Virus record (IMG/VR): IMGVR_UViG_3300044616_001788 | Span: 1-22,567 of that record | DNA from: a virus | Length of the DNA stretch: 22,567 nucleotides | Direction: 5' to 3' (one strand) | Part shown: positions 8,478 to 22,477 of the stretch, one piece after another | How the letters are laid out: each line of letters begins with the position of its first letter | How positions within the stretch are numbered: position 1 is the first letter of the stretch | Translations under genes and position numbers: made by a program | The notes under the pieces: model-generated | The model's database searches: none | The model's input: the letters and a program-made list of their open reading frames with translations, nothing else | Told to the model about the DNA's origin: nothing

Positions 8478-9008
8478 TTAGGCGCTCATGTTGCCCATAT
8501 AGACTACCGAGCATCCAGAAATCCTTGATCCACCAATGGTCTTGGATGACGATGAGGCGGATACCCGGAAAATCAATGCGTCTGCTGCGGTTAGGTACTG
8601 AATTGTAGAGATTGCTGGGGTGTCGTTGTTAGTGTTTGCCTGTGCCTGGGTTTCATTCCTTGCAACCACGGTTCCGTTTACCAAGACATATAGCCTGAAT
8701 GCAAAACCAGTACCAAGACCGCCGCCGCTGGCCAGATGGCAGGTGATGCTGTACCAGCCGGTCAATGGGATGGTAATTGTTGACCCAGAGGACCAGTATG
8801 CATAGAGGGCAGTGTTCTTTACGGCGCTAGACCAGGTAATTGCCGTTGCAGATGCGTCAGTAGATGTGTTTACGGTTAGAGTTGTTGTTCTCTGAAGGGT
8901 AATTCCATGAACCAAATCGGTTGTGACCCCGTCTCCAGTAATTGCGCCAGCAACCGTTAGGTCGTCCGTTGTTGCCGGGAGCACAAGGTCGCTAAGAATT
9001 CTTACCAT
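8478..9008 (-). CDS. C1q/TNF-like receptor-binding or fibre tip protein
   Basis: A 176-aa protein. After a short N-terminal linker with a DLTVAGAITGDG motif common in phage fibre shafts, residues about 75-171 form a jelly-roll pattern typical of C1q-like domains: GWYSITCHLA, RLYVLVNG, ISTIQYLTAADALIFRV and a final strand CSVVYMG. These domains trimerise and often form the receptor-binding tip of phage fibres. It starts 9 bases after the repeat fibre gene; the ribosome site is weak, consistent with coupling. Family call from pattern only. Confidence 0.7.
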   Translation of the reverse strand: MVRILSDLVLPATTDDLTVAGAITGDGVTTDLVHGITLQRTTTLTVNTSTDASATAITWSSAVKNTALYAYWSSGSTITIPLTGWYSITCHLASGGGLGTGFAFRLYVLVNGTVVARNETQAQANTNNDTPAISTIQYLTAADALIFRVSASSSSKTIGGSRISGCSVVYMGNMSA

Positions 9009-9017
9009 GGGGGTATC

Positions 9018-10793
9018 TTACCCTAGAACGACGACTCGGTATGTCCCGGCCAGGCTGATTGTGACGGTCAGGGTGTTTGTGGTTGCTGTTACCACGTCAC
9101 AGAGCACCGCAGCATCGCCAGAATCGTACACGGAAACAACCACTGCCTTCGTCCCAAGGCTGTGGGTGACCGTCTTGGCCTCTCCGGCCGTCCAGGTAGC
9201 GCTGGTGTTATAGCGGAGTGCTCCACCGTAGGTTGAGGCAATAGCAGTGCCCTGCCAGGTGCCAGCAGAGATTGTGCCGACGGTTGTAATGCTGTCATCG
9301 CCGCTGTATGTTCCGCCAGCTACTGCGGCCAGGGTTGCGTTGTATGCCTGAACGTCCGTGCCAATCGCAAGTCCAAGGGCCGTGCGGGCATCGCCAGCGC
9401 TGGTCGAACCAGTACCACCGCTTGCAATAGCAATCGCGGTGCCGTTCCACACGCCGGTGGCGATTGTGCCAACCGAGGTCAGGCTTGATCCGGTGACTCC
9501 GCTGCCAAGGGTTGTTGCATTGAGGACGCTTGTTCCAGCAATCTTGTAGGCCTTGCCAGTAAGAAGGTTAAAGTCTTCTGACGAGGTCCATGCGTCTGTT
9601 GCGTCAACCCAGTTAAGCGTCTTGTCGGTGGTGCCTTTAAGAGTAATACCGCCGCCATCAGCGGTTGCGTCACTTGGCGTGGCTACCGATCCAAGCTCAA
9701 TGTTCTTGTCGTCTACCGTGAGGGTAGTTGAGTTGATGGTGGTGGTTGTTCCGTTGACCGTCAGGTCACCAGAAAGCACAAGGCTTGTACCAGTTGCTGC
9801 GCCAATGTTTGGCGTGACAAGGGTTGGCGTGTTCGCGAATACAAGTGCGCCACTGCCTGTCTCGTCAGAGATAACGCCAGCAAGTTCTGAGGATGACGTT
9901 GCGGCAAAAGCGCTAAGCTTGTTTCCAGTAAGCGCAACCGTGCCAGAAGCATCTGGAAGGTTAATTGACCTGTCGGCAGTTGGATCAACAACATTAAGGA
10001 ACGTTTCGAAGTCGTTAGCCGTTGTTCCTTCGAAATAAATTCCGTGCGTTTCTGGAAGGTAGATACCGTGAATTGTCGGCGTCTGCCCTGTGGCAGTGAT
10101 GGTTGCGCCGTTAAGTGTTGGCGTATTGGCAAAGACTAGGGCGCCGCTTCCGGTTTCTCCCGTTACAGCGCTGGCAAGATTTGCAGACGATGGGGTTGCA
10201 AGGAAATCTGCAACACCAGTTCCCAGGCCAGAGACGCCCGTGCTGATCGGAAGGCCGCTTGCATTTGTAAGGGTGGCGCTTGATGGCGTCCCAAGTGCGG
10301 GAGTAACAAGCGTTGGGCTGTTGGCAAACACCAGAGCGCCTGTGCCGGTCTCGTCAGAGATAACGCCAGCAAGCTCGGCAGAAGAGGTTGCCGCAAAATC
10401 ACCTAGCTTGTTTGAGGTGCTTGCCTTGCTTGCGGCCAGGTCGTAAGCAGACTTGACGGACGCTGGGACAGCGGCCGTAGTCGTTGAGGTGCTGGAGGTG
10501 GAGTTTTCAAGCTGTACGGCACCCTTTTGGCTGGTCGTGCCGTCCTGGATAGTAATGTTTGGCGTATTGCCGCCGGAAGAGGCGAGCGGGCTGGAGGCGG
10601 TTACAGAGGTAACGGTGCCACCGCCAGTTGCAAGCGTGACCCACGCAGCTCCGTCATAAACCTTGATGGCGTCAGAGACGGTGTTGTAATAAATCTGACC
10701 CTGAACTGGCGATGCCGGGTCGGTGGCAAGGTTCTGTAGCGTGGCGTTCTGCAGCTCATTTTTCTGAAGGTCAAGATTGGTTAAGAACTTCAT
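9018..10793 (-). CDS. Repetitive tail fibre protein
   Basis: A 591-aa protein very rich in Ala, Gly, Ser and Thr. The N-terminus (about 1-60; MKFLTNLDLQKNELQNATLQ and GQIYYNTVSDAIKVYDGAAWV) is a common phage fibre head. The shaft carries three copies of a 36-residue unit (133-168, 197-232, 296-331) with the core SDETGxGALVFAN, plus a beta stretch with GDLTVNGTTTTINST. Residues about 525-591 form a small beta domain (VTHSLGTKAVVVSVYDS) that resembles the C-terminus of the collagen-like neighbour. A ribosome site (AAGGGGGA) precedes the ATG. Expected role: host recognition or fibre stalk on the virion. Confidence 0.85.
   Translation of the reverse strand: MKFLTNLDLQKNELQNATLQNLATDPASPVQGQIYYNTVSDAIKVYDGAAWVTLATGGGTVTSVTASSPLASSGGNTPNITIQDGTTSQKGAVQLENSTSSTSTTTAAVPASVKSAYDLAASKASTSNKLGDFAATSSAELAGVISDETGTGALVFANSPTLVTPALGTPSSATLTNASGLPISTGVSGLGTGVADFLATPSSANLASAVTGETGSGALVFANTPTLNGATITATGQTPTIHGIYLPETHGIYFEGTTANDFETFLNVVDPTADRSINLPDASGTVALTGNKLSAFAATSSSELAGVISDETGSGALVFANTPTLVTPNIGAATGTSLVLSGDLTVNGTTTTINSTTLTVDDKNIELGSVATPSDATADGGGITLKGTTDKTLNWVDATDAWTSSEDFNLLTGKAYKIAGTSVLNATTLGSGVTGSSLTSVGTIATGVWNGTAIAIASGGTGSTSAGDARTALGLAIGTDVQAYNATLAAVAGGTYSGDDSITTVGTISAGTWQGTAIASTYGGALRYNTSATWTAGEAKTVTHSLGTKAVVVSVYDSGDAAVLCDVVTATTNTLTVTISLAGTYRVVVLG
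9801..9908 (-). repeat. Fibre shaft repeat, copy 3
   Basis: Codes for residues 296-331 of the repetitive fibre and is nearly identical in protein to copy 1. Such units allow length change by recombination. Confidence 0.8.
10098..10205 (-). repeat. Fibre shaft repeat, copy 2
   Basis: Codes for residues 197-232 of the repetitive fibre. It is the most diverged copy (FLATPSSANLASAVTGETG) but keeps GSGALVFANTPTL. Confidence 0.75.
10290..10397 (-). repeat. Fibre shaft repeat, copy 1
   Basis: Codes for residues 133-168 of the repetitive fibre. Shares the FAATSS(A/S)ELAGVISDETG core with copy 3 almost exactly. Confidence 0.8.
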
Positions 10794-10802
10794 GCTTCCC
10801 CC

Positions 10803-11255
10803 TTAGTTTAGGTATGCCTTACCGCCAAAGGCGGCAACGAACGTAAGCCGCAGGCTGTTGCTGTCAAGATACTCAATGTTGCCGTAAACGACACTACCAG
10901 CTGAATCTACAACCATGACAGACGGAAAACAATTCAAATTGTGCGTAACGCTCCAGGTAGACGAGGCAGTGTTTTGGCTGTGCGTATAGGTGGTGTGAGA
11001 AGCTCCGGTTCCCTGCGGACCTTGCGGTCCGGTTGCGCCCTGTGCGCCCTGTGGGCCCTGCGGGCCCTGTGGGCCGTCTGATCCAACAAAGCCATCATCG
11101 CCTTTTGGTCCCTGCAGCCCAAGGGTTCCTACCGTGACGCTATTGGTTGTCTGGTTGGCCGTAATTGAATTTGTTGACGGAGATACGGTAACAGTATTAT
11201 CTGTAGCCGCTGTAATCGTTAAATTTATGTCTACTACGTCGACGTCTGGGCTCAT
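10803..11255 (-). CDS. Collagen-like tail protein
   Basis: A 150-aa protein. Residues 1-45 are a Thr/Asn-rich beta segment, residues 46-84 contain 13 consecutive Gly-X-Y triplets ([13 protein letters not shown]...), which form a collagen-type triple helix, and residues about 87-150 form a beta domain ([20 protein letters not shown]). The last domain shares its layout with the C-terminus of the adjacent repetitive fibre. Phages use such collagen stalks as trimeric spacers in fibres. The ATG overlaps the upstream stop by four bases (ATGA). Confidence 0.82.
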
Positions 11256-11599
11256 CTCGTTACTTCTCCGGTGACAATAAAGTCTCCGGAGATAAGCCTG
11301 ACAACGACACCGGCTCCAGAGATAAGCTCAAGATCGTAAACGTAATTGCCTGCCGGTACCGAGGCAAGCGTCGCGGCAGAGATGGCAATCGCAACCGTTC
11401 CAGCAGCCCCACCAAGCGTGATGCCAGAGGCATTAGTCAGCGACAAATACGGAGTTTCAGAGCCAAGGGTCTTCCGCACCTGCATCCTGGCGGTATAGCC
11501 AGTAATGTTAATCAGCACGTTTGAGCTGTCCCTATAGGTCAGCGTAGCGTTGTAGTTTGCTCCCTGTTCAGCGGTGATGTCGTACACAGAACTTGCCAT
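11252..11599 (-). CDS. BppU-like baseplate/fibre attachment protein
   Basis: A 115-aa protein consisting of one beta domain. The order of motifs ([32 protein letters not shown], then [10 protein letters not shown] and [13 protein letters not shown]) is that of the BppU N-terminal-like domain, which anchors fibres to the baseplate in Gram-positive phages. An AATAGGA site precedes the ATG. It begins the fibre set proper and is coupled to the collagen-like gene by a four-base overlap. Confidence 0.7.
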
Positions 11600-12227: not shown

Positions 12228-12236
12228 TGGTATACT
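12228..12236 (+). promoter_or_regulatory. Extended -10 promoter of the terminase operon, leaderless
   Basis: TGG-TATACT (extended -10 TGn plus five of six -10 bases) ends exactly 6 nt before the ATG at 12243, so transcription would start at or next to the A of the start codon. No Shine-Dalgarno sequence lies upstream. The same box overlaps the leader of the divergent zinc-finger gene. Confidence 0.65.
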
Positions 12237-12242
12237 ACAACT

Positions 12243-12767
12243 ATGGCAAAGCGTGGGCGCGTTGGCGCTGAACAACTGGGCGTACTTCGAGAAAAGATTA
12301 AAGGCCTGCACCTGCAGGGGGTTCCGATGCCGGAAATCGCCACTGCCGTAGACCTTTCGCCCGAAACTGTCCGGAAACATATCTATGCTATCAGAAAACA
12401 ATGGTCTGAGGAAGGTCCGGACGCTGCTTCTAGCCGGATTGAGCTAATCCAGCGGGCAAACCTTATTGGCAAAATGGCCGCCGGAGGAGCCGCCCGCGCC
12501 CGTGGCTCAAAGGAGGAGGCAACTTTCCTTAAGCTGCAGCTTGAAGTGGTTGATCGACTTGCCAAACTTACGGGTGCCTATGCCCCAGAAACATCTTCCA
12601 GGCCAGGGCAGACAAACGTGGCCATTCAGATCAACACCGTTCACGAGATTGACAACCTTCCCCCAGCAGAGCTTGCAAAAAGGCTGCAAATGTGGGCAAG
12701 CGAAGTTACGGACAGCCTCAAGATAATTGAAGGGACGGCCACAGAAGATGACAGCGACGGTCAATAA
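12243..12767 (+). CDS. Terminase small subunit
   Basis: A 174-aa protein directly upstream of and overlapping the large terminase gene. The N-terminal helix-turn-helix (about 15-52; GVPMPEIATAVDLSPETVRKH) is the DNA-binding domain expected of TerS, which recognises the packaging site. The middle (about 60-115) is helical and would oligomerise into a ring. The C-terminus is acidic (TEDDSDGQ) and could contact the large subunit. No ribosome site precedes the ATG; instead the -10 box implies a leaderless mRNA. Confidence 0.78.
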   Translation: MAKRGRVGAEQLGVLREKIKGLHLQGVPMPEIATAVDLSPETVRKHIYAIRKQWSEEGPDAASSRIELIQRANLIGKMAAGGAARARGSKEEATFLKLQLEVVDRLAKLTGAYAPETSSRPGQTNVAIQINTVHEIDNLPPAELAKRLQMWASEVTDSLKIIEGTATEDDSDGQ

Positions 12768-14169
12768 CAACTACCGGGAGTGGCTTAGGGTCAAAGCCCA
12801 AACTTCCGACGCTGCCTTTGCTGAGTATGTTAGCGGGCTGGTCTTTCCAAGGCATCTGCGCGAGATGGAGCAGTTTCTTGACGAGAACGAGCGCGGACTG
12901 GTGCTCATGCCCCGTGGCCACGCTAAGACTACGCAGTTGATTCATCGCGCCGCCCGCATGGTTGGCGTAACAAAGGGCAAGGTGCGCATTGGCGTTCTTA
13001 CCGCAGTCATGTCTGACGCCCTGGCACGATCTAGGGCAATTAAGGTCATCATTGAGTCCCCGTACTTTGCCGAAGTTTTTCCCTGGGCGCAAGAAGGCGT
13101 TATTGGCTCCAAGTGGACCGACGAAGTGTGGACAGTGAAGGGGGCAAACCTGGGCAAGGACTCAACGTGCTTTGCCGACGGACTTGGCTCTATTAAGCCC
13201 GGAGCTCGACTTGACATTCTTTTTGCGGACGACATGGTGGGCATGAAGGAAAACGCTACTGCTGTTCAGCGCCAGAAGGCAAGTGAAACGTATTGGCAGG
13301 TTGTCGACCCCATGCTTGTGCCCAAGGCAAAGCGTTGGTACATCGGCACGCGCTGGCACGAAGATGACTTTTACGCCGAGCTTATTAAGAAGAACGTGCC
13401 GCACTATCAGCGACGAGCGCTCGAGGAAGACGCTGTTCTCTGGCCGGAAATGTACACCGTTGCCGACATGGAGCAAAAGAAGATGGAGCTTGGCACGCCA
13501 ATCTTTATGTTGCAGTTCCAAAACGATGTTACCTCAATGGGCGGCAACATCTTTAGGTATGAAAACTTTCAGCGTGTCGACAAGGTCCCAGAAGGATCAC
13601 GCCGCCTAGGCGTAGACCTTGCATCCTCAGCCTCCCAGAGAAGCGACTACACCGCTGCTGTGGAGATTGTGGTAGACGACCAGCACAACATTTACATCAT
13701 CGGCAGCTGGAAGTCTCGGTTGCAGGAAGGGCACAGGGCTTGGTTGACCGGCATTGACGGCCAGGGAAACCTTGACTACGACTCTGGGCCCCGCGCACTA
13801 TGGCCACAACGACTCGTTGGCCTCAAGGGGCTTGACCCGGAGCTCGACGATGCTCGCTTCTTTGAGTCGGTCAACATTGAGGCCGTTCAACATCAGAGTA
13901 CGTTCGTTCGAGAGATCTTGTCCACCACAACCCTGCCGGCAAGGCCGATTCGCCCGGACCGAGATAAGGTCACGCGCTCCAGGGCTCTTGCGGCAAGGTA
14001 TGAGGCCGGTAAGGTCTTCCACGTAAACAACGCCCCTGGCATTGATGACCTTGAGATGCAGCTGCTTGCATTCCCAAACGGGTCACACGACGACGTTGTT
14101 GATGCGCTAGTGTACGCAGCCGATCTTGGCGGAGACGGCTTTTACTTCACTGCAGCTAAGCGCTACTAG
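12748..14169 (+). CDS. terL: Terminase large subunit (packaging ATPase/nuclease)
   Basis: A 473-aa protein. Walker A is PRGHAKTT (55-62), Walker B LDILFADD (155-162) and a conserved IGTRWHEDD follows (199-207). The RNase-H-like nuclease has the first Asp in GVDLASSA (Asp290) and the closing DDVVDAL (448-454). It pumps DNA into the prohead and cuts it. The ATG at 12748 overlaps the terS end by 20 bases; an upstream TTG at 12727 would add seven residues and cannot be excluded. The gene overlaps its convergent subtilisin neighbour by four bases, with no terminator between them. Confidence 0.95.
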   Translation: MTATVNNNYREWLRVKAQTSDAAFAEYVSGLVFPRHLREMEQFLDENERGLVLMPRGHAKTTQLIHRAARMVGVTKGKVRIGVLTAVMSDALARSRAIKVIIESPYFAEVFPWAQEGVIGSKWTDEVWTVKGANLGKDSTCFADGLGSIKPGARLDILFADDMVGMKENATAVQRQKASETYWQVVDPMLVPKAKRWYIGTRWHEDDFYAELIKKNVPHYQRRALEEDAVLWPEMYTVADMEQKKMELGTPIFMLQFQNDVTSMGGNIFRYENFQRVDKVPEGSRRLGVDLASSASQRSDYTAAVEIVVDDQHNIYIIGSWKSRLQEGHRAWLTGIDGQGNLDYDSGPRALWPQRLVGLKGLDPELDDARFFESVNIEAVQHQSTFVREILSTTTLPARPIRPDRDKVTRSRALAARYEAGKVFHVNNAPGIDDLEMQLLAFPNGSHDDVVDALVYAADLGGDGFYFTAAKRY

Positions 14170-15128
14170 CACATCCACCAATCATCCGTGCAAAGATCCG
14201 GGGCAAACTCATCCCCTGAGAACATTTGCAGCAAAGCCTTGGTGGTCTTGAGCCTCTGGGCAATGGTCATGCTGCTAGAAGTCGCCTCCATCACCATATT
14301 CAATGCCTCTTCGGTAGTGACACCGTTTTCTGCTGCGTAGGCTGCAATTGCCCCCGACACATACGGAGCTGAGAACGACGTTCCGCTTACCAACCTCTCG
14401 TCGGTTGGGCCCATGGCCAATACGTTGGCGCCCGGGGCATACAGCCAGACGCAATCTCCGTAGTTTGACTTAGTCCACGGAAGATCCAGCCACGTGCTTG
14501 CGGCTACCGCAACCATCAGTCCGTCGCCACAGCCCATTCGGGATGGTGAATACTTAGCAGCGTTTGCTCCATAGTTGCCGGCGGCAATGATTACTGGAAT
14601 CCCAAGGTCGCTAATGGCCTCTACGGCCTTGTCTACTGCCTTGTCAGCCTTTCCGCCAAAACTAATATTTACAACAGAGGTGTCTGGGCTTGCATTAGTT
14701 GCAATCCACTTAAGTCCAGCCAGGATTGCCGCCCTCGTGCCACCTCCACTGCAATTAAGCACACGCACGGGAACAATGGTTGCAGCCTCGGCTACGCCAT
14801 AGCCGGCTCCGGCAATAAGAGACGCCACAGAAGTTCCGTGGCCCTTAGCGCAATCAAGGGTGTTCTTGCCAAAGCTATGAAAGCCAGGGGCAAGGTTTTC
14901 AATAAGCCCGTTGTCGGCAATACCAGTATCTACAACGTATACCGTGATTCCAGCACCCTTACCGGCACCGCTCCAGACAAAACCGTCACGAACGTAGCCG
15001 CCACGCCAAAAATTATCTGGCTCAAGGATGCGGTCTCGGGCCCAGTCGTCTTCTGCTTGCGCAAAATACTCTGGGGCCGGAGAGCAGGGGACAATAATGA
15101 GCGCTAGCGCAATAATGAAGTTAAGCAT
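14166..15128 (-). CDS. Secreted subtilisin-like serine protease (S8, proteinase K type)
   Basis: A 320-aa protein with a hydrophobic signal sequence (about 1-18) and the complete S8 catalytic set: Asp67 (VVDTG), His97 (KGHGTSVA), oxyanion Asn185 (AAGN) and Ser251 (GTSFSAP). Cysteines at 93, 126, 200 and 226 could form disulfides, fitting export. The mature domain begins almost at once after the signal (AQAEDDWARDRIL), so the I9-type inhibitory propeptide usual in the family is absent. It is the last gene of the eleven-gene operon, with a GAGG site near the start and a four-base overlap with the terminase stop. Roles such as virion maturation, host surface digestion or lysis are inference. Confidence 0.9.
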   Translation of the reverse strand: MLNFIIALALIIVPCSPAPEYFAQAEDDWARDRILEPDNFWRGGYVRDGFVWSGAGKGAGITVYVVDTGIADNGLIENLAPGFHSFGKNTLDCAKGHGTSVASLIAGAGYGVAEAATIVPVRVLNCSGGGTRAAILAGLKWIATNASPDTSVVNISFGGKADKAVDKAVEAISDLGIPVIIAAGNYGANAAKYSPSRMGCGDGLMVAVAASTWLDLPWTKSNYGDCVWLYAPGANVLAMGPTDERLVSGTSFSAPYVSGAIAAYAAENGVTTEEALNMVMEATSSSMTIAQRLKTTKALLQMFSGDEFAPDLCTDDWWMC

Positions 15129-15131
15129 TGG

Positions 15132-15452
15132 TTACGCCTCGATCTGTTCGGCGTTTTCCCCTAAGCTTGCATACACCGGCATGCCCGGCTGAAAGTACGC
15201 ACCTTCAACATTAAACGAGATGTACTCGTCAGCCTCAAGATACGGGTCAGAGTCTTCTGCCTGATCCTGATCGATGCTCTGCTCCTGCTCAATAATCTCT
15301 TGAGCCATCTTCTTGACCATCTTATCTCGGTCATAAATTGCTACCGTAAGCTGTCCGTCAGATCCATGAAAGATGTTTCCGTGTCCAATAAGGCAATCGT
15401 CCCATCCGTCGGCGTACAAAACGCCTTCGATCTTTTCAGTTACTGAGGCCAT
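15132..15452 (-). CDS. Conserved phage hypothetical protein
   Basis: A 106-aa protein starting at ATG 15452, six bases after AGGAG. A compact N-terminal part (GVLYADGWDDCLIGHG, VAIYDRDKMVKKM) and a C-terminal FNVEGAYFQPGMPVY are separated by an acidic Gln/Asp-rich stretch (about 54-75). This arrangement, with YDxxK(V/M) and F(N)xxGAYxxxGxPV, recurs in many phage hypothetical proteins of unknown function. No catalytic motif is visible. It lies between a winged-helix/zinc gene and the subtilisin. Confidence 0.75.
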   Translation of the reverse strand: MASVTEKIEGVLYADGWDDCLIGHGNIFHGSDGQLTVAIYDRDKMVKKMAQEIIEQEQSIDQDQAEDSDPYLEADEYISFNVEGAYFQPGMPVYASLGENAEQIEA

Positions 15453-15454
15453 TT

Positions 15455-15817
15455 TCAACTCCTAAATACAAAGACCTGCCTTTTCTTGCAGGAAATACAG
15501 TACGTTGAAGCATGTAGCTCTGACAACGTATTGGACCTGACTGAATCCTTAGCCTCAATCCTGCCACAGCGGGAACAAATCCATCCCCCGCTGATCGTTT
15601 TCTTATCTACAACAACGAGCTTGTACTGCCAAGACTTGCGCTTTGGGTCTACGTTCTGCTGGTGATCAATAACATGACCAGCAGTCCTGAGCTCTGCAAT
15701 CAGAGCACCAAATCGCTCCCCCTCAGGAAGCTCGTTCTGAACCAGCTTGGCATCAACCCAGCTGTTTTGATAGCGCTGCAAAATGGCCAGAACTGCTTTC
15801 GCGTTCTTGCTAATCAC
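15455..15817 (-). CDS. Winged-helix and zinc-ribbon protein
   Basis: A 120-aa protein. The N-terminal part (about 1-68; VDAKLVQNELPEGERFGALIAELR) looks like a small helix-turn-helix with a beta wing. The C-terminal part has C81xxC84 and C107xxC110, a zinc ribbon. Translation begins with GTG at 15817, coupled to the upstream stop by a GTGA overlap. The combination suggests a nucleic-acid-binding regulator; targets unknown. Confidence 0.72.
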   Translation of the reverse strand: MISKNAKAVLAILQRYQNSWVDAKLVQNELPEGERFGALIAELRTAGHVIDHQQNVDPKRKSWQYKLVVVDKKTISGGWICSRCGRIEAKDSVRSNTLSELHASTYCISCKKRQVFVFRS

Positions 15818-16146
15818 TTTGCACGAACCATCTTATTAATAAAGGTGTGGTTCGCCCAAGCGTATACAAAAAGCTGAAGGTCCTCCACATCACTGCCGTT
15901 GTAGGTCGTTGCAACGCGGTCGTTTGGGACGTGCATTGACACGTGGGCTCGAATCTTCTGCGTCTTGCGATCCCTGGCGATAAAGCAAAACCCTTCGTAG
16001 TCGGCGTCCTTGCCGCCAAGAACCGGCGCAAGCTTCTTGGAAACCGTAGTCAAGTACTCTGCCAGCTCGTCGGAAAGGTCAAGCATGATTGCGCGCTCGG
16101 CCAAGGGGCTAGGAGTACTCTTTGGCTTTGGCATCTTGCTGCTCAT
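15814..16146 (-). CDS. Hypothetical protein
   Basis: A 110-aa protein. A basic, Pro/Ser-rich N-terminal tail (about 1-16) precedes a mixed alpha/beta part with a FIARDRKTQKIRAHVSMHVP beta hairpin and an aromatic C-terminal helix (LQLFVYAWANHTFINKM). I do not recognise the family. It overlaps both neighbours by four bases (ATGA upstream, GTGA downstream), so its expression is tied to theirs. Confidence 0.7.
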   Translation of the reverse strand: MSSKMPKPKSTPSPLAERAIMLDLSDELAEYLTTVSKKLAPVLGGKDADYEGFCFIARDRKTQKIRAHVSMHVPNDRVATTYNGSDVEDLQLFVYAWANHTFINKMVRAK

Positions 16147-16322
16147 TCGGCACCCCCTACCAGCTTATTGACCAATTGTTCCGCATGCTCTGCGGCAGTA
16201 TCCGTCTGATTTGAAAGGCCTTGGCCGAGCACAACTCGTTGCACCCGGTCAATTACTGCCCAGAATACCACGCTATGCTCTCGGTCGTTTTCTAGGACGA
16301 TCCAGAGGTCATCCCTATTCAC
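16143..16322 (-). CDS. Small hypothetical protein, 59 aa
   Basis: The GTG at 16322 has a perfect AGGAGG six bases upstream and is chosen over longer readings, which lie inside the previous gene. The first half is beta-like (DDLWIVLENDREHSVVFWAVIDR) and the second is a helix (TAAEHAEQLVNKLVG). Not recognised. It overlaps the HTH/zinc gene by eight bases and the next gene by four. Confidence 0.68.
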   Translation of the reverse strand: MNRDDLWIVLENDREHSVVFWAVIDRVQRVVLGQGLSNQTDTAAEHAEQLVNKLVGGAE

Positions 16323-16767
16323 CTTTGGCCTCCTGCTTTGGCGGGTATTGGGTAAACTCAACAAGTGGGCAGCCGCTGTCCCAGCAGAATCCGCCCTCTT
16401 CAATTGTTGCTCCGGCGCAGTTTAGGCACATCATATCTACAGCCTTTTGCATCCTGGTGACCATCTTGCTTTCTGCAAGAACGACACGCTTTGCTCTCGT
16501 TGGGCTTTCGGTAATTGCTAACTTCTGCAGAAGCTCACTGCTATCTTTGCCGCTCTTTAGGCAATAGAAGTCAACAAACCTGGAAATGAACTGAGGCACA
16601 ATCCTGCGGTGCCCGTAGACGTAAGCTGCGATTGTCCGGTGACTGTACCCGCCCATCTCTTCAGCTAGCTTCTTGGCCGCTTCGCCTCGATTAAAGCCCG
16701 GGTACATCTTTTCAAGTTCGTCTTCGAGCTGACGGTACGTCATCACCACAGACTCGCGCAACGACAC
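16315..16767 (-). CDS. HTH regulator-like protein with C-terminal zinc motif
   Basis: A 150-aa protein starting at GTG 16767 with GGAGGA seven bases upstream. Residues about 9-70 are an HTH (GFNRGEAAKKLAEEMGGYSHRTIAAYVYGHRRIVPQF, second helix at SHRTIAAYV), like Cro/C1-type repressors. A basic middle (90-105) leads to C114xxC117 and C128x4C133, a probable zinc site. It resembles the 113-aa HTH protein of the fibre operon only in general plan. Confidence 0.72.
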   Translation of the reverse strand: MSLRESVVMTYRQLEDELEKMYPGFNRGEAAKKLAEEMGGYSHRTIAAYVYGHRRIVPQFISRFVDFYCLKSGKDSSELLQKLAITESPTRAKRVVLAESKMVTRMQKAVDMMCLNCAGATIEEGGFCWDSGCPLVEFTQYPPKQEAKGE

Positions 16768-17156
16768 TAACGGTCCTCCGCAAGCAAGCTTTCTTCAAGT
16801 GGCCTGCCCCAGAGCCCGCGCCGGAGCGCAACGGCAATCAAGGCGTAGTTTGCAATGTCGAGCAGGGTATCCTCAAGCGACTCCTCGGTGCTGTAGTCCA
16901 TGTCGCTAAGAACAACCTTCCCGTCAATCACCCTGCCATTCATAAACTTCAGGGCGCGAGAAACCTTGTCGAAGGAGATGCGGCCAATCACGCCGTACAG
17001 CCCCAGGTGCTGAATGTTTGCGTCTCCGTACCGGCGCTGCTTCTCAACCAAGAGAGAGAACGCCTCTGAGTAGATCCTTTGAAACTCGGACTCAAACGAT
17101 CCCTCTACAAAAAGATCTGGGATTGCGGTGAGCTGGTGGTCCTTTGTGTCGCTCAA
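16767..17156 (-). CDS. DUF1599/Nmad1-like all-alpha protein
   Basis: A 129-aa helical protein. The pattern KQRRYGD (39-45), ISFDKVSRALKF (60-71) and EESLEDTLLDIANYALIA (91-108) is that of the DUF1599 family (nucleotide-modification-associated domain 1), which is related to all-alpha nucleotide pyrophosphatases such as MazG. Glu92, Asp96 and Asp100 would be metal ligands. Proteins of this family occur in phages with modified DNA, possibly clearing or preparing nucleotides. Translation apparently begins at TTG with AAGGAGG four bases before it. Located next to a sugar-nucleotide enzyme and glycosyltransferases. Confidence 0.75.
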   Translation of the reverse strand: MSDTKDHQLTAIPDLFVEGSFESEFQRIYSEAFSLLVEKQRRYGDANIQHLGLYGVIGRISFDKVSRALKFMNGRVIDGKVVLSDMDYSTEESLEDTLLDIANYALIAVALRRGLWGRPLEESLLAEDR

Positions 17157-17157
17157 G

Positions 17158-18033
17158 TTACCTCCTTGCGTTTAGTGCTCGCTTGATTCCAGTCTCAAGA
17201 TCGACTTTCGGTGTGTATACCTTTAGCATAGAGGAAATGTCTGCTACGCGCCAGTTTACGCCCTCTGGCTTGTCTGTTAGAAACTGAAACTTCGGGAAGT
17301 ACCCTTCCGCCTTGGCAACCATTTCTCCCAGCTCGCGGAAGCTTGTACCGTGTCCGGTGCCAATGTTGAGCGGCCCACGGTAGTCTTGCTTCACTGCCGC
17401 GTCAACGCAGCCAACGACATCGCTAATGTGCACAAAGTCCCTGGTCTGGGTTCCGTCGCCCCAAATAACAAATGGGTTTTCTCGATTACGTCCCCGCTCG
17501 ATGAACGATGGGAACGGATAGTCTAGGGCCTGGTCTTCTCCGTACCCGGAGAATGGGCGGAACACGTGCGTGCGCACACCCTCTGCCTCGGCAAATTGCG
17601 CAAGGTACTCTCCCGTAAGCTTTGACCAGCCGTAGGTAAGGTCTGGGTTGCGGATATTACTAAGGTTAATGTCTGCCTCTGTAAGCTTCTTGTGTGACTG
17701 CTTGGTCTGCAGCTCGATTGGATATGCTGCCGAAGAAGAGAAGTAAACGACTCTTGGTTGCCTGGTGCGGATAGCCCACTGCCACATTTCCGCGTCGATA
17801 GAGAGGTCAACGGCCACAGAGAGGGGGTTCCCTTCAATCTTTGCCCGGCCACCGACTACGGCCGCTAAATGAATTACCAGGTCAAACTTCGTGTGATTTG
17901 CCAGGGAGAAGAATTTACGCACGTCCATTGAGTCAACGATGTCAACGCCAAGAATCGTGTGCCCCTGGCTTTCGTAAAACTTCTGAAAGTGCCGACCGAC
18001 AAACCCTCGGTGCCCAGTAATTAAAATGTTCAC
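17158..18033 (-). CDS. NAD-dependent sugar-nucleotide epimerase/dehydratase (extended SDR)
   Basis: A 291-aa Rossmann-fold enzyme: the nucleotide-binding GHRGFVG (7-13) with acidic Asp31 at the end of the second strand (NAD rather than NADP preference), Ser99-Ser101 region (FSSSAAYP) and the catalytic Tyr134-x3-Lys138 (YGWSK). The C-terminal part binds the sugar nucleotide (GDGTQTRDFVHISDVV). It is closest in style to UDP-glucose 4-epimerase or GDP-sugar epimerases/reductases; the substrate cannot be told. Starts at GTG with GGAGG upstream and overlaps the preceding glycosyltransferase stop by one base (TAGTG). Confidence 0.9.
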   Translation of the reverse strand: MNILITGHRGFVGRHFQKFYESQGHTILGVDIVDSMDVRKFFSLANHTKFDLVIHLAAVVGGRAKIEGNPLSVAVDLSIDAEMWQWAIRTRQPRVVYFSSSAAYPIELQTKQSHKKLTEADINLSNIRNPDLTYGWSKLTGEYLAQFAEAEGVRTHVFRPFSGYGEDQALDYPFPSFIERGRNRENPFVIWGDGTQTRDFVHISDVVGCVDAAVKQDYRGPLNIGTGHGTSFRELGEMVAKAEGYFPKFQFLTDKPEGVNWRVADISSMLKVYTPKVDLETGIKRALNARR

Positions 18034-18782
18034 TAGTAAGCCTCCAGTAGCTCAAGGTCATATTCAAACTTGCCAATTCCGCCATTCTTAACGGACAGGC
18101 TTTCATCTTCCCAGATGACAAAATAATCGTTCTCGTCTAGCGCTGCGCCGACGTGATTTGCAGGATTCTCAAGTTCAACTGGGAACTTCTTGGTAACGCT
18201 TGGCGCTGTTACCTTTGTGCCAAAAAAGCTGTCGTGAATCATGCAGCTTTTCTCCACCCTTACCCAAACCCTCCGTGACAAAAACTTTTGGTCGGATAGG
18301 TATGGGTCTCTGTCGGTTTCCTCCTGCATAAACATGCCCATCATTGTGGCAAGATTTCGAAGCTTATCTGCGTAGCCGCCCCACATCCCTGCGCTCATCG
18401 GCCATTTCTTGTGACCAATCTCGTGATCTTTCATTACATGGAAGTCTAGGCCGCTATCAAGCCATTCTTCGTAGGCTCGGCGCTCTCGGACGGTCAGGCG
18501 CGCATCAATATCCCTAATCAGTACAACATCGACTTCTCGGTCGGAAAACGCAAGAAATCTCCAGGCATTCGCAAACCATTGGTTTCCGGCTGGTGCAATC
18601 TTAATTTCCACATTGGAAAACTTCTTTAACTCTTCTACGGCCCATGCGGGAACTCCGTGCGCGATATAGATGCGCATTACAAAGTCCGGGTAAATCTTTT
18701 TTGCCAGGATTGCGTTAATAAACGCTCCGACAATGTATCGCCTGTTGTTTCCGTAGAGAACAAAGGAGAGAACGTTTTTCAC
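18033..18782 (-). CDS. GT-A-type glycosyltransferase-like protein
   Basis: A 249-aa protein with a DxD motif (RDIDARL; Asp91, Asp93) after a hydrophobic strand VDVVLI, as in GT-A glycosyltransferases that bind a metal-sugar-nucleotide. Other notable pieces are FVLYGNNRRYIVGA, RIYIAHGVP, WRFLAFS, VMKDHEIGHKKWPMSAGMWGG. The set LYG/Y..G/..RIY/WRFL/RDxDxR/DHxxH..P/AGMWG recurs in a poorly described transferase group. Acceptor unknown. GTG start, four-base overlap with the gene before. Confidence 0.72.
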   Translation of the reverse strand: MKNVLSFVLYGNNRRYIVGAFINAILAKKIYPDFVMRIYIAHGVPAWAVEELKKFSNVEIKIAPAGNQWFANAWRFLAFSDREVDVVLIRDIDARLTVRERRAYEEWLDSGLDFHVMKDHEIGHKKWPMSAGMWGGYADKLRNLATMMGMFMQEETDRDPYLSDQKFLSRRVWVRVEKSCMIHDSFFGTKVTAPSVTKKFPVELENPANHVGAALDENDYFVIWEDESLSVKNGGIGKFEYDLELLEAY

Positions 18783-19435
18783 TTGTTAAGGATTTTTTGG
18801 AGATCATGAGCAAACCGATCTCGAAGATATCGGTCAAAGGCAACTACGTCCTTGGTATAAATCTCTGGGCTATTGACCTCGATATACCCGGCATCATTCT
18901 GTGACTTCCCAGCCAGTGGGTGCAGGTGCTCAATGATGACGTCGCTACGGTAAATGAGGTGGCCAAGATCCTGTCCAAGCGCCTTCCAAAAATTATCCAT
19001 GTACATATGGATAAGCTCCGGCGGCGCCATGTACCCAATAGCCCGAACGATTGATGCCGACATCATTACGGCGGTAGGAAGATTCTGACCCTGGAAAAGG
19101 TCGTTTCCGTATGCCACGCCGTCCCGGTCGCCAATTTCTTTTGCAAGCTCTGTGTCCCAGCCCTTGGTCATGGGCCGGTGATCGTCGCCCATAAATGCAA
19201 GGTACTCATAGTCGTTGGCATGCTTGACGGCAAGAAGGTTCAGCGTTCCGCACATTCGCAGGCGCGGGTTCACAGACGCAAGGGCCATCACCTCGTCCGA
19301 GTACGGGGAGAAGTCGTCCTCGTCAATTCCGAACAAGATGTCGCAATCTTCAGACGTTTCACGAAATTGCTTTAGCAAAGCGTCGCACGATGCTGGCCGG
19401 TGCCTGGTCGGCACGATCAAGAGTGTCTTAGCCAT
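18779..19435 (-). CDS. GT2-like glycosyltransferase
   Basis: A 218-aa protein. The N-terminus (TLLIVPTRHRPASCDALLKQF) is the typical GT2 opening strand and helix. The acidic metal-binding motif is FMGDDHRP (Asp84, Asp85), where GT2 enzymes carry DxD or EDD. HLHPLAGKSQNDAGY near the C-terminus supplies the usual late His. Probably transfers a sugar from a nucleotide donor; donor and acceptor unknown. Overlaps the operon's first gene by eight bases. Confidence 0.75.
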   Translation of the reverse strand: MAKTLLIVPTRHRPASCDALLKQFRETSEDCDILFGIDEDDFSPYSDEVMALASVNPRLRMCGTLNLLAVKHANDYEYLAFMGDDHRPMTKGWDTELAKEIGDRDGVAYGNDLFQGQNLPTAVMMSASIVRAIGYMAPPELIHMYMDNFWKALGQDLGHLIYRSDVIIEHLHPLAGKSQNDAGYIEVNSPEIYTKDVVAFDRYLRDRFAHDLQKILNK

Positions 19436-19649
19436 TTTTCACCGCCGATTTCATGGTAATAAGCCACTGGGCCTCTTCTTCATTGAGTCTCACAAAATCC
19501 TCCGCTTGAATGTTTTCTGGAAAATGCACCGCGTATGGGTCGGTGTCGTTTGTCCACCTTGGAGAGTACGCCAAGGCAATGTTAAACGACGAAGACCATA
19601 GATACCAAATTGCCGCAACTTTAGGGCTTGGTGGCGGTGTTTTGCTCAT
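19428..19649 (-). CDS. Small hypothetical protein, first gene of the eleven-gene operon
   Basis: A 73-aa protein (MSKTPPPSPKVAAIWYLWSS...). Start chosen at ATG 19649 because a TATAGT -10 box ends six bases before it and no ribosome site is present; upstream in-frame starts lie inside or beyond the promoter. Aromatic, mildly hydrophobic N-terminal half and an acidic helical C-terminal half (NEEEAQWLITMKSAV). No family recognised. Confidence 0.65.
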   Translation of the reverse strand: MSKTPPPSPKVAAIWYLWSSSFNIALAYSPRWTNDTDPYAVHFPENIQAEDFVRLNEEEAQWLITMKSAVKNG

Positions 19650-19655
19650 GGCAGG

Positions 19656-19664
19656 ACTATAACA
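19656..19664 (-). promoter_or_regulatory. Extended -10 promoter of the eleven-gene operon, leaderless
   Basis: On the minus strand TGT-TATAGT (19664-19656) is followed by exactly six bases and the ATG at 19649, the same geometry as the terminase promoter. No Shine-Dalgarno sequence is seen, so the mRNA probably starts at the start codon. Confidence 0.62.
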
Positions 19665-19727
19665 CACCATGAGTAGATTTTCACAGGATTGCGCTTGTAA
19701 CCAAGTCGCCACTATCTTGTGTTACTG

Positions 19728-21629: not shown

Positions 21630-22448
21630 TTACTTTTCTCCTTCAAGCGCGTGTAGCGCAGCTAGATCGTACTTCAGCGCAAGTGAGGCGCTGTGCCGAG
21701 TATGGCCATCAACCTTGACCCACACTTCTCCACCGATTGCTCGGAACTCATCGCAGAAGTTGTAATCCTCTCCGATAAAATAATTTTCCCTCCGACCGTA
21801 GCGAAAATACTCAACAGTTCTTATCTGCTTTTCATCCATTAGCTCAATATACCATCGGTCCGGATAGGCCTTCTGGAAGCGTTCGAAGGCGCTTCTCTGG
21901 ACAATCATACACCCCGTTCCGGCATGTGTGGCACGCATTAAGCCAAGAGCTGCTTCTTGCTCGTTGGGCGCCGGTGCCGAATTGTCTAAGACAAAGTTTG
22001 GCCTACCAAGCACGGCCTCAATGGCCTCCGCTGGAACCTCAGGGCGCTTTCTCACAAGATCTACTGCCCGGTCCCAACGAATTTGCCGCTTGATGCACGG
22101 CAATGCAACAATTTCTTTTCCTGCCGCAATGGCATACATCACGTCTTCCCAGTCAACCGTGATGTCGGCGTCAAGCATGAGGATGTGTGTTGCTGTGGAC
22201 TCTTGCATGAACTTGGCAACGCATCGGTTTCGCGCTACCGGGAGCATTGAGCTGCCAACAACAAAACTCCAATGAAAATCAATCCCTACTTGGAGACACG
22301 CCCGTTGGATGCTCAACAGCGAATGCGTATAGCCGTGGTCCACCTTACCGTCGATGATCGGCGTAATGGCAATCAGTGAAATTTTCTCCGGCTGGGGGGC
22401 CGTAGTTTTCACAAAGCTTGCCGCTCGACGCTGCTTTTTCTTGCTCAT
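21630..22448 (-). CDS. GT-A glycosyltransferase, paralogue of the 20592-21404 gene
   Basis: A 272-aa protein starting at ATG 22448 with GAAGGAGAA upstream; a ten-residue longer reading is less likely. A basic N-terminal tail (MSKKKQRR) precedes the transferase domain: ITPIIDGKVDHGYTHS, SSMLPVARNRCV, the DxD motif MLDADI (Asp93, Asp95), LPCIKRQIRWDR, a GTGCMIV strand and GEDYNFC. First gene of the three-gene operon at the window end. Confidence 0.83.
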   Translation of the reverse strand: MSKKKQRRAASFVKTTAPQPEKISLIAITPIIDGKVDHGYTHSLLSIQRACLQVGIDFHWSFVVGSSMLPVARNRCVAKFMQESTATHILMLDADITVDWEDVMYAIAAGKEIVALPCIKRQIRWDRAVDLVRKRPEVPAEAIEAVLGRPNFVLDNSAPAPNEQEAALGLMRATHAGTGCMIVQRSAFERFQKAYPDRWYIELMDEKQIRTVEYFRYGRRENYFIGEDYNFCDEFRAIGGEVWVKVDGHTRHSASLALKYDLAALHALEGEK

Positions 22449-22468: not shown

Positions 22469-22477
22469 AAGATACCA
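22469..22477 (-). promoter_or_regulatory. Candidate extended -10 promoter
   Basis: On the minus strand TGG-TATCTT (22477-22469) carries the TGn extension and four of six -10 bases. Here a short leader with a ribosome site remains before the ATG at 22448, unlike the two leaderless promoters. Confidence 0.4.

Follow-up and report, generated by a model that had tools for sequence, protein, structure and literature searches.

The lambda cI gene is expressed from PRM as a leaderless message, and the middle promoters of phage T4 work by AsiA/MotA sigma appropriation. Translation of the leaderless cI message has been described (PMC9031893), and in Cluster O mycobacteriophages the SigA-like promoters PL1, PR2, and PL2 were predicted to be leaderless (PMC4351075). 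In bacteria, the leaderless genes of Deinococcus-Thermus and Actinobacteria carry a TANNNT motif 6-7 bp from the open reading frame (PMC12340547, PMC3160421). The promoters analyzed here resemble these bacterial ones in having TAnnnT 6-7 bp before the ORF, with T1, A2, and T6 nearly invariant and no Shine-Dalgarno (SD) sequence, beside genes that are SD-led; they differ in that they belong to a phage family, serve a minority of genes, frequently carry TGn, and have extra upstream blocks. The Cluster O predictions were made in five close relatives, whereas here conservation was traced for terS too, and as far as about 30-40% protein identity. With lambda cI, the likeness is a phage leaderless message made by a host sigma70 RNA polymerase, the sigma factor being deduced in our case; the gene and the phage, however, are unrelated, and PRM is an activated repressor promoter. 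The T4 middle promoters have an extended -10 box, as do the two window sites, no -35 element, where no clear -35 consensus was seen here, and a conserved element near -30, but the upstream blocks found here are promoter-specific, and no T4-type activator box near -30 common to all promoters was observed, those of g73 and terS being different. This way of working has precedents in other phages and in bacteria and is ordinary in kind.

The window, i.e., the whole stretch of DNA under analysis, is a linear IMG/VR fragment of 22,567 nt (IMGVR_UViG_3300044616_001788). An 80.8-kb record, G001, contains it at 99.996% identity, indicating that both come from the same phage. Upstream of the tail genes found at the window's left end, G001 has a single uninterrupted reading frame, about 4,464 codons long (G001:18624-32018, L082-L083). 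A search with TerL provided 80 IMG/VR relatives, the orthologous loci of g73 and of terS were lined up at the start codon, and the counts given below refer to distinct upstream loci, 28 for g73 and 35 for terS. The genome-wide test set was composed of ten larger records with 592 predicted genes, obtained by simple in-house gene calls. From the IMG record numbers, we take the source samples to be freshwater. When a host was searched for, megablast against phages and a TerL scan of 84,980 genomes gave no match, and neither TerS nor the lysin had relatives in named phages; the TerL relatives among named phages were about 25% identical, with mixed hosts. The phage tRNA-Arg pattern was discarded as a host clue, as it matched Alphaproteobacteria, Chloroflexota, Armatimonadota, and Campylobacterota, and was thus uninformative. 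The features are listed in Table 1.

Table 1. Coordinates of promoter elements and genes (positions in the window, unless another record is named).
Feature	Position	Strand	Remarks
-10 box of g73 with TG extension, TGTTATAGT	19656..19664	-	hexamer TATAGT at 19656-19661
Discriminator/spacer CCTGCC, 6 nt	19650..19655	-	length kept, letters free
ATG of g73	19649-19647	-	start codon
Upstream block, -45..-24 of g73	19673..19694	-	conserved in window clade
Array of about eleven ORFs	14166..19649	-	tightly packed, overlaps or few-base gaps; ends against terL
Array member 1, g73	19428..19649	-	73-aa ORF, predicted leaderless; 44 tblastn relatives
Array member 2, glycosyltransferase	18779-19435	-	
Array member 3, ORF	18033-18782	-	
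Array member 4, epimerase	17158-18033	-	
Array members 5-7, ORFs	16767-17156, 16315-16767, 16143-16322	-	
Array members 8-10, ORFs	15814-16146, 15455-15817, 15132-15452	-	
Array member 11, S8 subtilase-like	14166-15128	-	PF00082; near terminase genes; tblastn relatives in 68 loci
-10 box of terS, TGGTATACT	12228..12236	+	TAnnnT exactly 6 nt before the start in 32/35 distinct loci
terS, putative small terminase, HTH	12243..12767	+	predicted leaderless; adjoins terL
terL	12751-14169		PF17289, phrog_38
-10 box TGGTATCTT	22469..22477	-	predicted 14-nt leader 22462-22449 with SD GAAGGAG
Glycosyltransferase-like gene behind the 22477 box	21630..22448	-	phrog_1574
TAAGAT, 6 nt before the ATG of 8478-9008	9015..9020	-	possible further leaderless promoter
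Stand-alone sigma region 3.2-4 protein, 138 aa	L085:5989-6405 = G001:65989-66405	-	outside the window

The initial annotation had described a promoter box followed by six bases and an ATG at 19647-19664, and both letters and coordinates were right: the minus strand reads CATGGTG, TGTTATAGT, CCTGCC, and ATG AGC AAA. The g73 product had no match in PHROG. Among the 28 orthologous loci, a -10-like hexamer was found 6 nt before the start in 26 and 7 nt before it in the other two; this hexamer was TAnnnT, except for CATACT in three loci, and no SD sequence preceded any of the 28 starts. Pairwise identity was 0.93 at T-12/A-11/T-7 versus 0.37 across the spacer. The same geometry had been claimed for terS on the other strand, and it is indeed present, 7,406 bases away from start to start, as TGGTATACT, ACAACT, and ATG at 12228-12245 (+), and conserved in the relatives. 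The three loci that depart from the exact spacing (L070, L078, and L079) have a leader with an SD, and their TATAAT is located farther upstream. When the box was at 6 nt, SD was absent in 31 of 32 cases, the lone exception being an AGGA made by the -10 box itself. At terS, T-12, A-11, and T-7 were invariant (pairwise identity 1.00), while identity in the spacer was 0.32, slightly above random bases, and only 0.63 at the first and second codon positions of the N-terminus. These invariant positions, next to almost random spacer letters, suggest that selection keeps the hexamer and the spacer length.

Next, the motif was counted. TGnTATnnT-N6-ATG occurred three times in the window versus 0.10 ± 0.30 expected, and none of the 100 shuffles reached this number; TGnTATnnT alone was not enriched in the window (9 versus 6.2 ± 2.65). 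The third full site, at 21854-21837 (-), was rejected as a promoter: its ATG is an in-frame Met within the gene 21630-22448, and the match is probably due to chance. The refuting condition set in the initial annotation, a motif no more frequent before genes than elsewhere, was examined in the relatives: 12 of the 14 exact sites in the ten records opened real genes, which were terS and g73 plus two recognized by sequence as HNH-like and zinc-ribbon genes. A reversed control pattern gave no match versus 21 for the motif, over 13 records of which three are the same phage. With the relaxed pattern TAnnnT before an in-frame ATG, the ten records contained 42 cases at a distance of 6 nt versus about 11 at other distances, and TATAnT was found ten times at 6 nt and never at 0-5 or 7-13 nt. 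Upon collapsing to families, TAnnnT gave 22 cases at 6 nt and a mean of 9.7 elsewhere, with the highest other value of 19 at 22 nt; TATAnT gave five and at most two, respectively, a clean but small difference. The collapsed TAnnnT excess is modest, so the strength of the case rests on the strict motif and the orthologue footprints. As an internal negative, TAnnnT at 6 nt was absent from the orthologues of the lysin, holin, tail fibre, and p74, all of which are SD-led.

Collectively, 19647-19664 is very probably a sigma70-type, -10-dependent promoter that generates a leaderless mRNA for g73 and the array behind it, with an independent terS promoter of the same build. The leaderless reading given in the initial annotation agrees with this, because the -10-type box would place the A of the ATG at +1, with no SD; from the distance between the hexamer and the ATG, this A is the likely +1. 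We infer the transcription start, the leaderless translation, the sigma factor used, and the co-transcription of the array from sequence, and the steps could be as follows. Region 2 of a primary-type sigma factor, most likely that of the host, would read T-12, A-11, and T-7; the spacing would make the A of the ATG the first transcribed base, placing g73 and the array on a leaderless mRNA, and the ribosome would start on the 5'-terminal AUG without SD. The downstream genes of the array would be translated via SD sites or translational coupling. SD sites were found at several array starts, and the second gene overlaps g73 and has no SD, suggesting translational coupling. Within the array, terminator-like sites were not above chance. 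An eleven-gene operon, as had been proposed, is plausible from the gene packing, which is where the co-transcription is drawn from.

Regarding the sigma factor, region 2 was not found in nine records in which the controls were positive; the host sigma is thus the simplest reading and is likely the one used. Searches for a single-subunit RNA polymerase (PF00940) gave no match, but the controls were silent too, and the Mor-like activator PF08765 gave only weak and partial matches, in G001, G003, and G004. However, a 138-aa protein of G001, which has orthologues in G003 and G005, resembles primary sigma factors in regions 3.2-4 only, and this makes a modified host enzyme a rival to be weighed. 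Under this alternative, which we regard as possible and rather unlikely, the host RNA polymerase would be modified by a phage factor, either the sigma 3.2-4 protein or an activator sitting on the upstream blocks, in a T4-middle-like fashion. It would fit the presence of that protein in the same phage and the lack of a -35 consensus, which was not clearly above the shuffled background; GTGAAA is found at 17 bp in the window and is not conserved in relatives. It would also fit the sequence blocks conserved upstream of both genes: that of g73 reads GGTCAATC...AAATCTAC in relatives and is GCAATCCTGTGAAAATCTAC-like in the window, and that of terS spans -44..-19 in clade C. These blocks suggest that the -10 box alone is perhaps insufficient. 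Nevertheless, the leaderless geometry is present in records, incomplete ones, where the sigma-4-like protein was not found (it was missing from the sequences available for G004, G006, G008-G010, and G012), and the two promoters have no upstream block in common. A more specific version, in which the sigma 3.2-4 protein would replace host sigma region 4, weaken -35 recognition, and steer the polymerase to -10-only leaderless promoters whose messages would be translatable by 70S ribosomes late in infection, is doubtful.

Neither the g73 block nor the terS block recurred at other promoters. GTCAAT-N8-AATCTAC was discarded as a shared co-timing operator, as four relatives each had a single copy of it, located at the g73 promoter, and CTTGCCGTCAAG-like sequences were found elsewhere and not at the g73 or terS promoters. 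With each promoter having its own unshared block, the sequence gives no support for co-timing, and the co-timed expression put forward in the initial annotation does not follow. The TG extension, regarded there as part of a shared logic, is not universal: TGn precedes the hexamer at both window sites, in 26 of the 35 terS loci and in 11 of the 28 g73 loci, and what remains invariant is T-12, A-11, and T-7 plus the 6-nt spacing. On its other strand, the g73 upstream block contains TAGATT, possibly the -10 box of a divergent promoter towards 19781.

We consider it very unlikely that the hexamer acts in translation, as a non-SD ribosome element, instead of being a promoter. Although it occupies the usual place of an SD and, at 8478-9008, lies directly behind the stop codon of the preceding gene, it fits the T-12/A-11/T-7 of sigma70 -10 boxes, it is best conserved at terS and g73, where it opens divergent arrays, and the box shifts upstream where an SD leader exists, as in L070, L078, L079, and at 22477. 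Least credible of all are true starts farther upstream, with the box belonging to coding sequence or matching by chance: the window does have two more in-frame starts, which precede the g73 ATG by 18 and 21 nt, but they have no SD and are missing in several orthologues, the leaderless ATG is the sole in-frame start of the g73 orthologue in L014, L017, and L029, and a fixed spacing with free spacer letters is unlike coding sequence.

The extended box was also said to recur at 22477. The box exists there; it precedes an SD leader, however, and not the leaderless geometry, since TGGTATCTT is followed by CCATCC, ACGAAGGAGAACCC, and ATG, with no ATG at 6 nt. The predicted leader with GAAGGAG behind this box makes 21630-22448 an SD-led gene in the window and rules out the box as a leaderless promoter there. 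In L014, L015, L017, and L021, the orthologues of this gene showed TATGAT-N6-ATG without a leader, and in L017 an SD-like match was also formed within the box region. The gene would then be leaderless in relatives and SD-led in the window clade, pointing to an interconversion of initiation modes, and these orthologues offer a natural test of the change between leaderless and short SD-led starts.

Moreover, further genes may be leaderless. In the orthologues of 8478-9008, TAAGAT or TAATAT was found at 6 nt in five of five distinct loci, with no SD; the TAAGAT in the window begins with TAA, which is also the stop codon that ends the tail-fibre gene 9018-10793. The orthologues of 11252-11599 showed a TATAAT-like box at 6 nt in 20 distinct loci, mostly of another clade, and the window copy is ambiguous, with either TAGGAT at five or an AGGA SD. 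The analysis provides a footprinted set of predicted leaderless promoters for a common, uncultured phage family, and helps to correct gene starts missed by SD-based callers. In G005, an HNH-like gene located between two tRNA genes also has the leaderless geometry, TGCTATACT-N6-ATG (L095:4786-4803).
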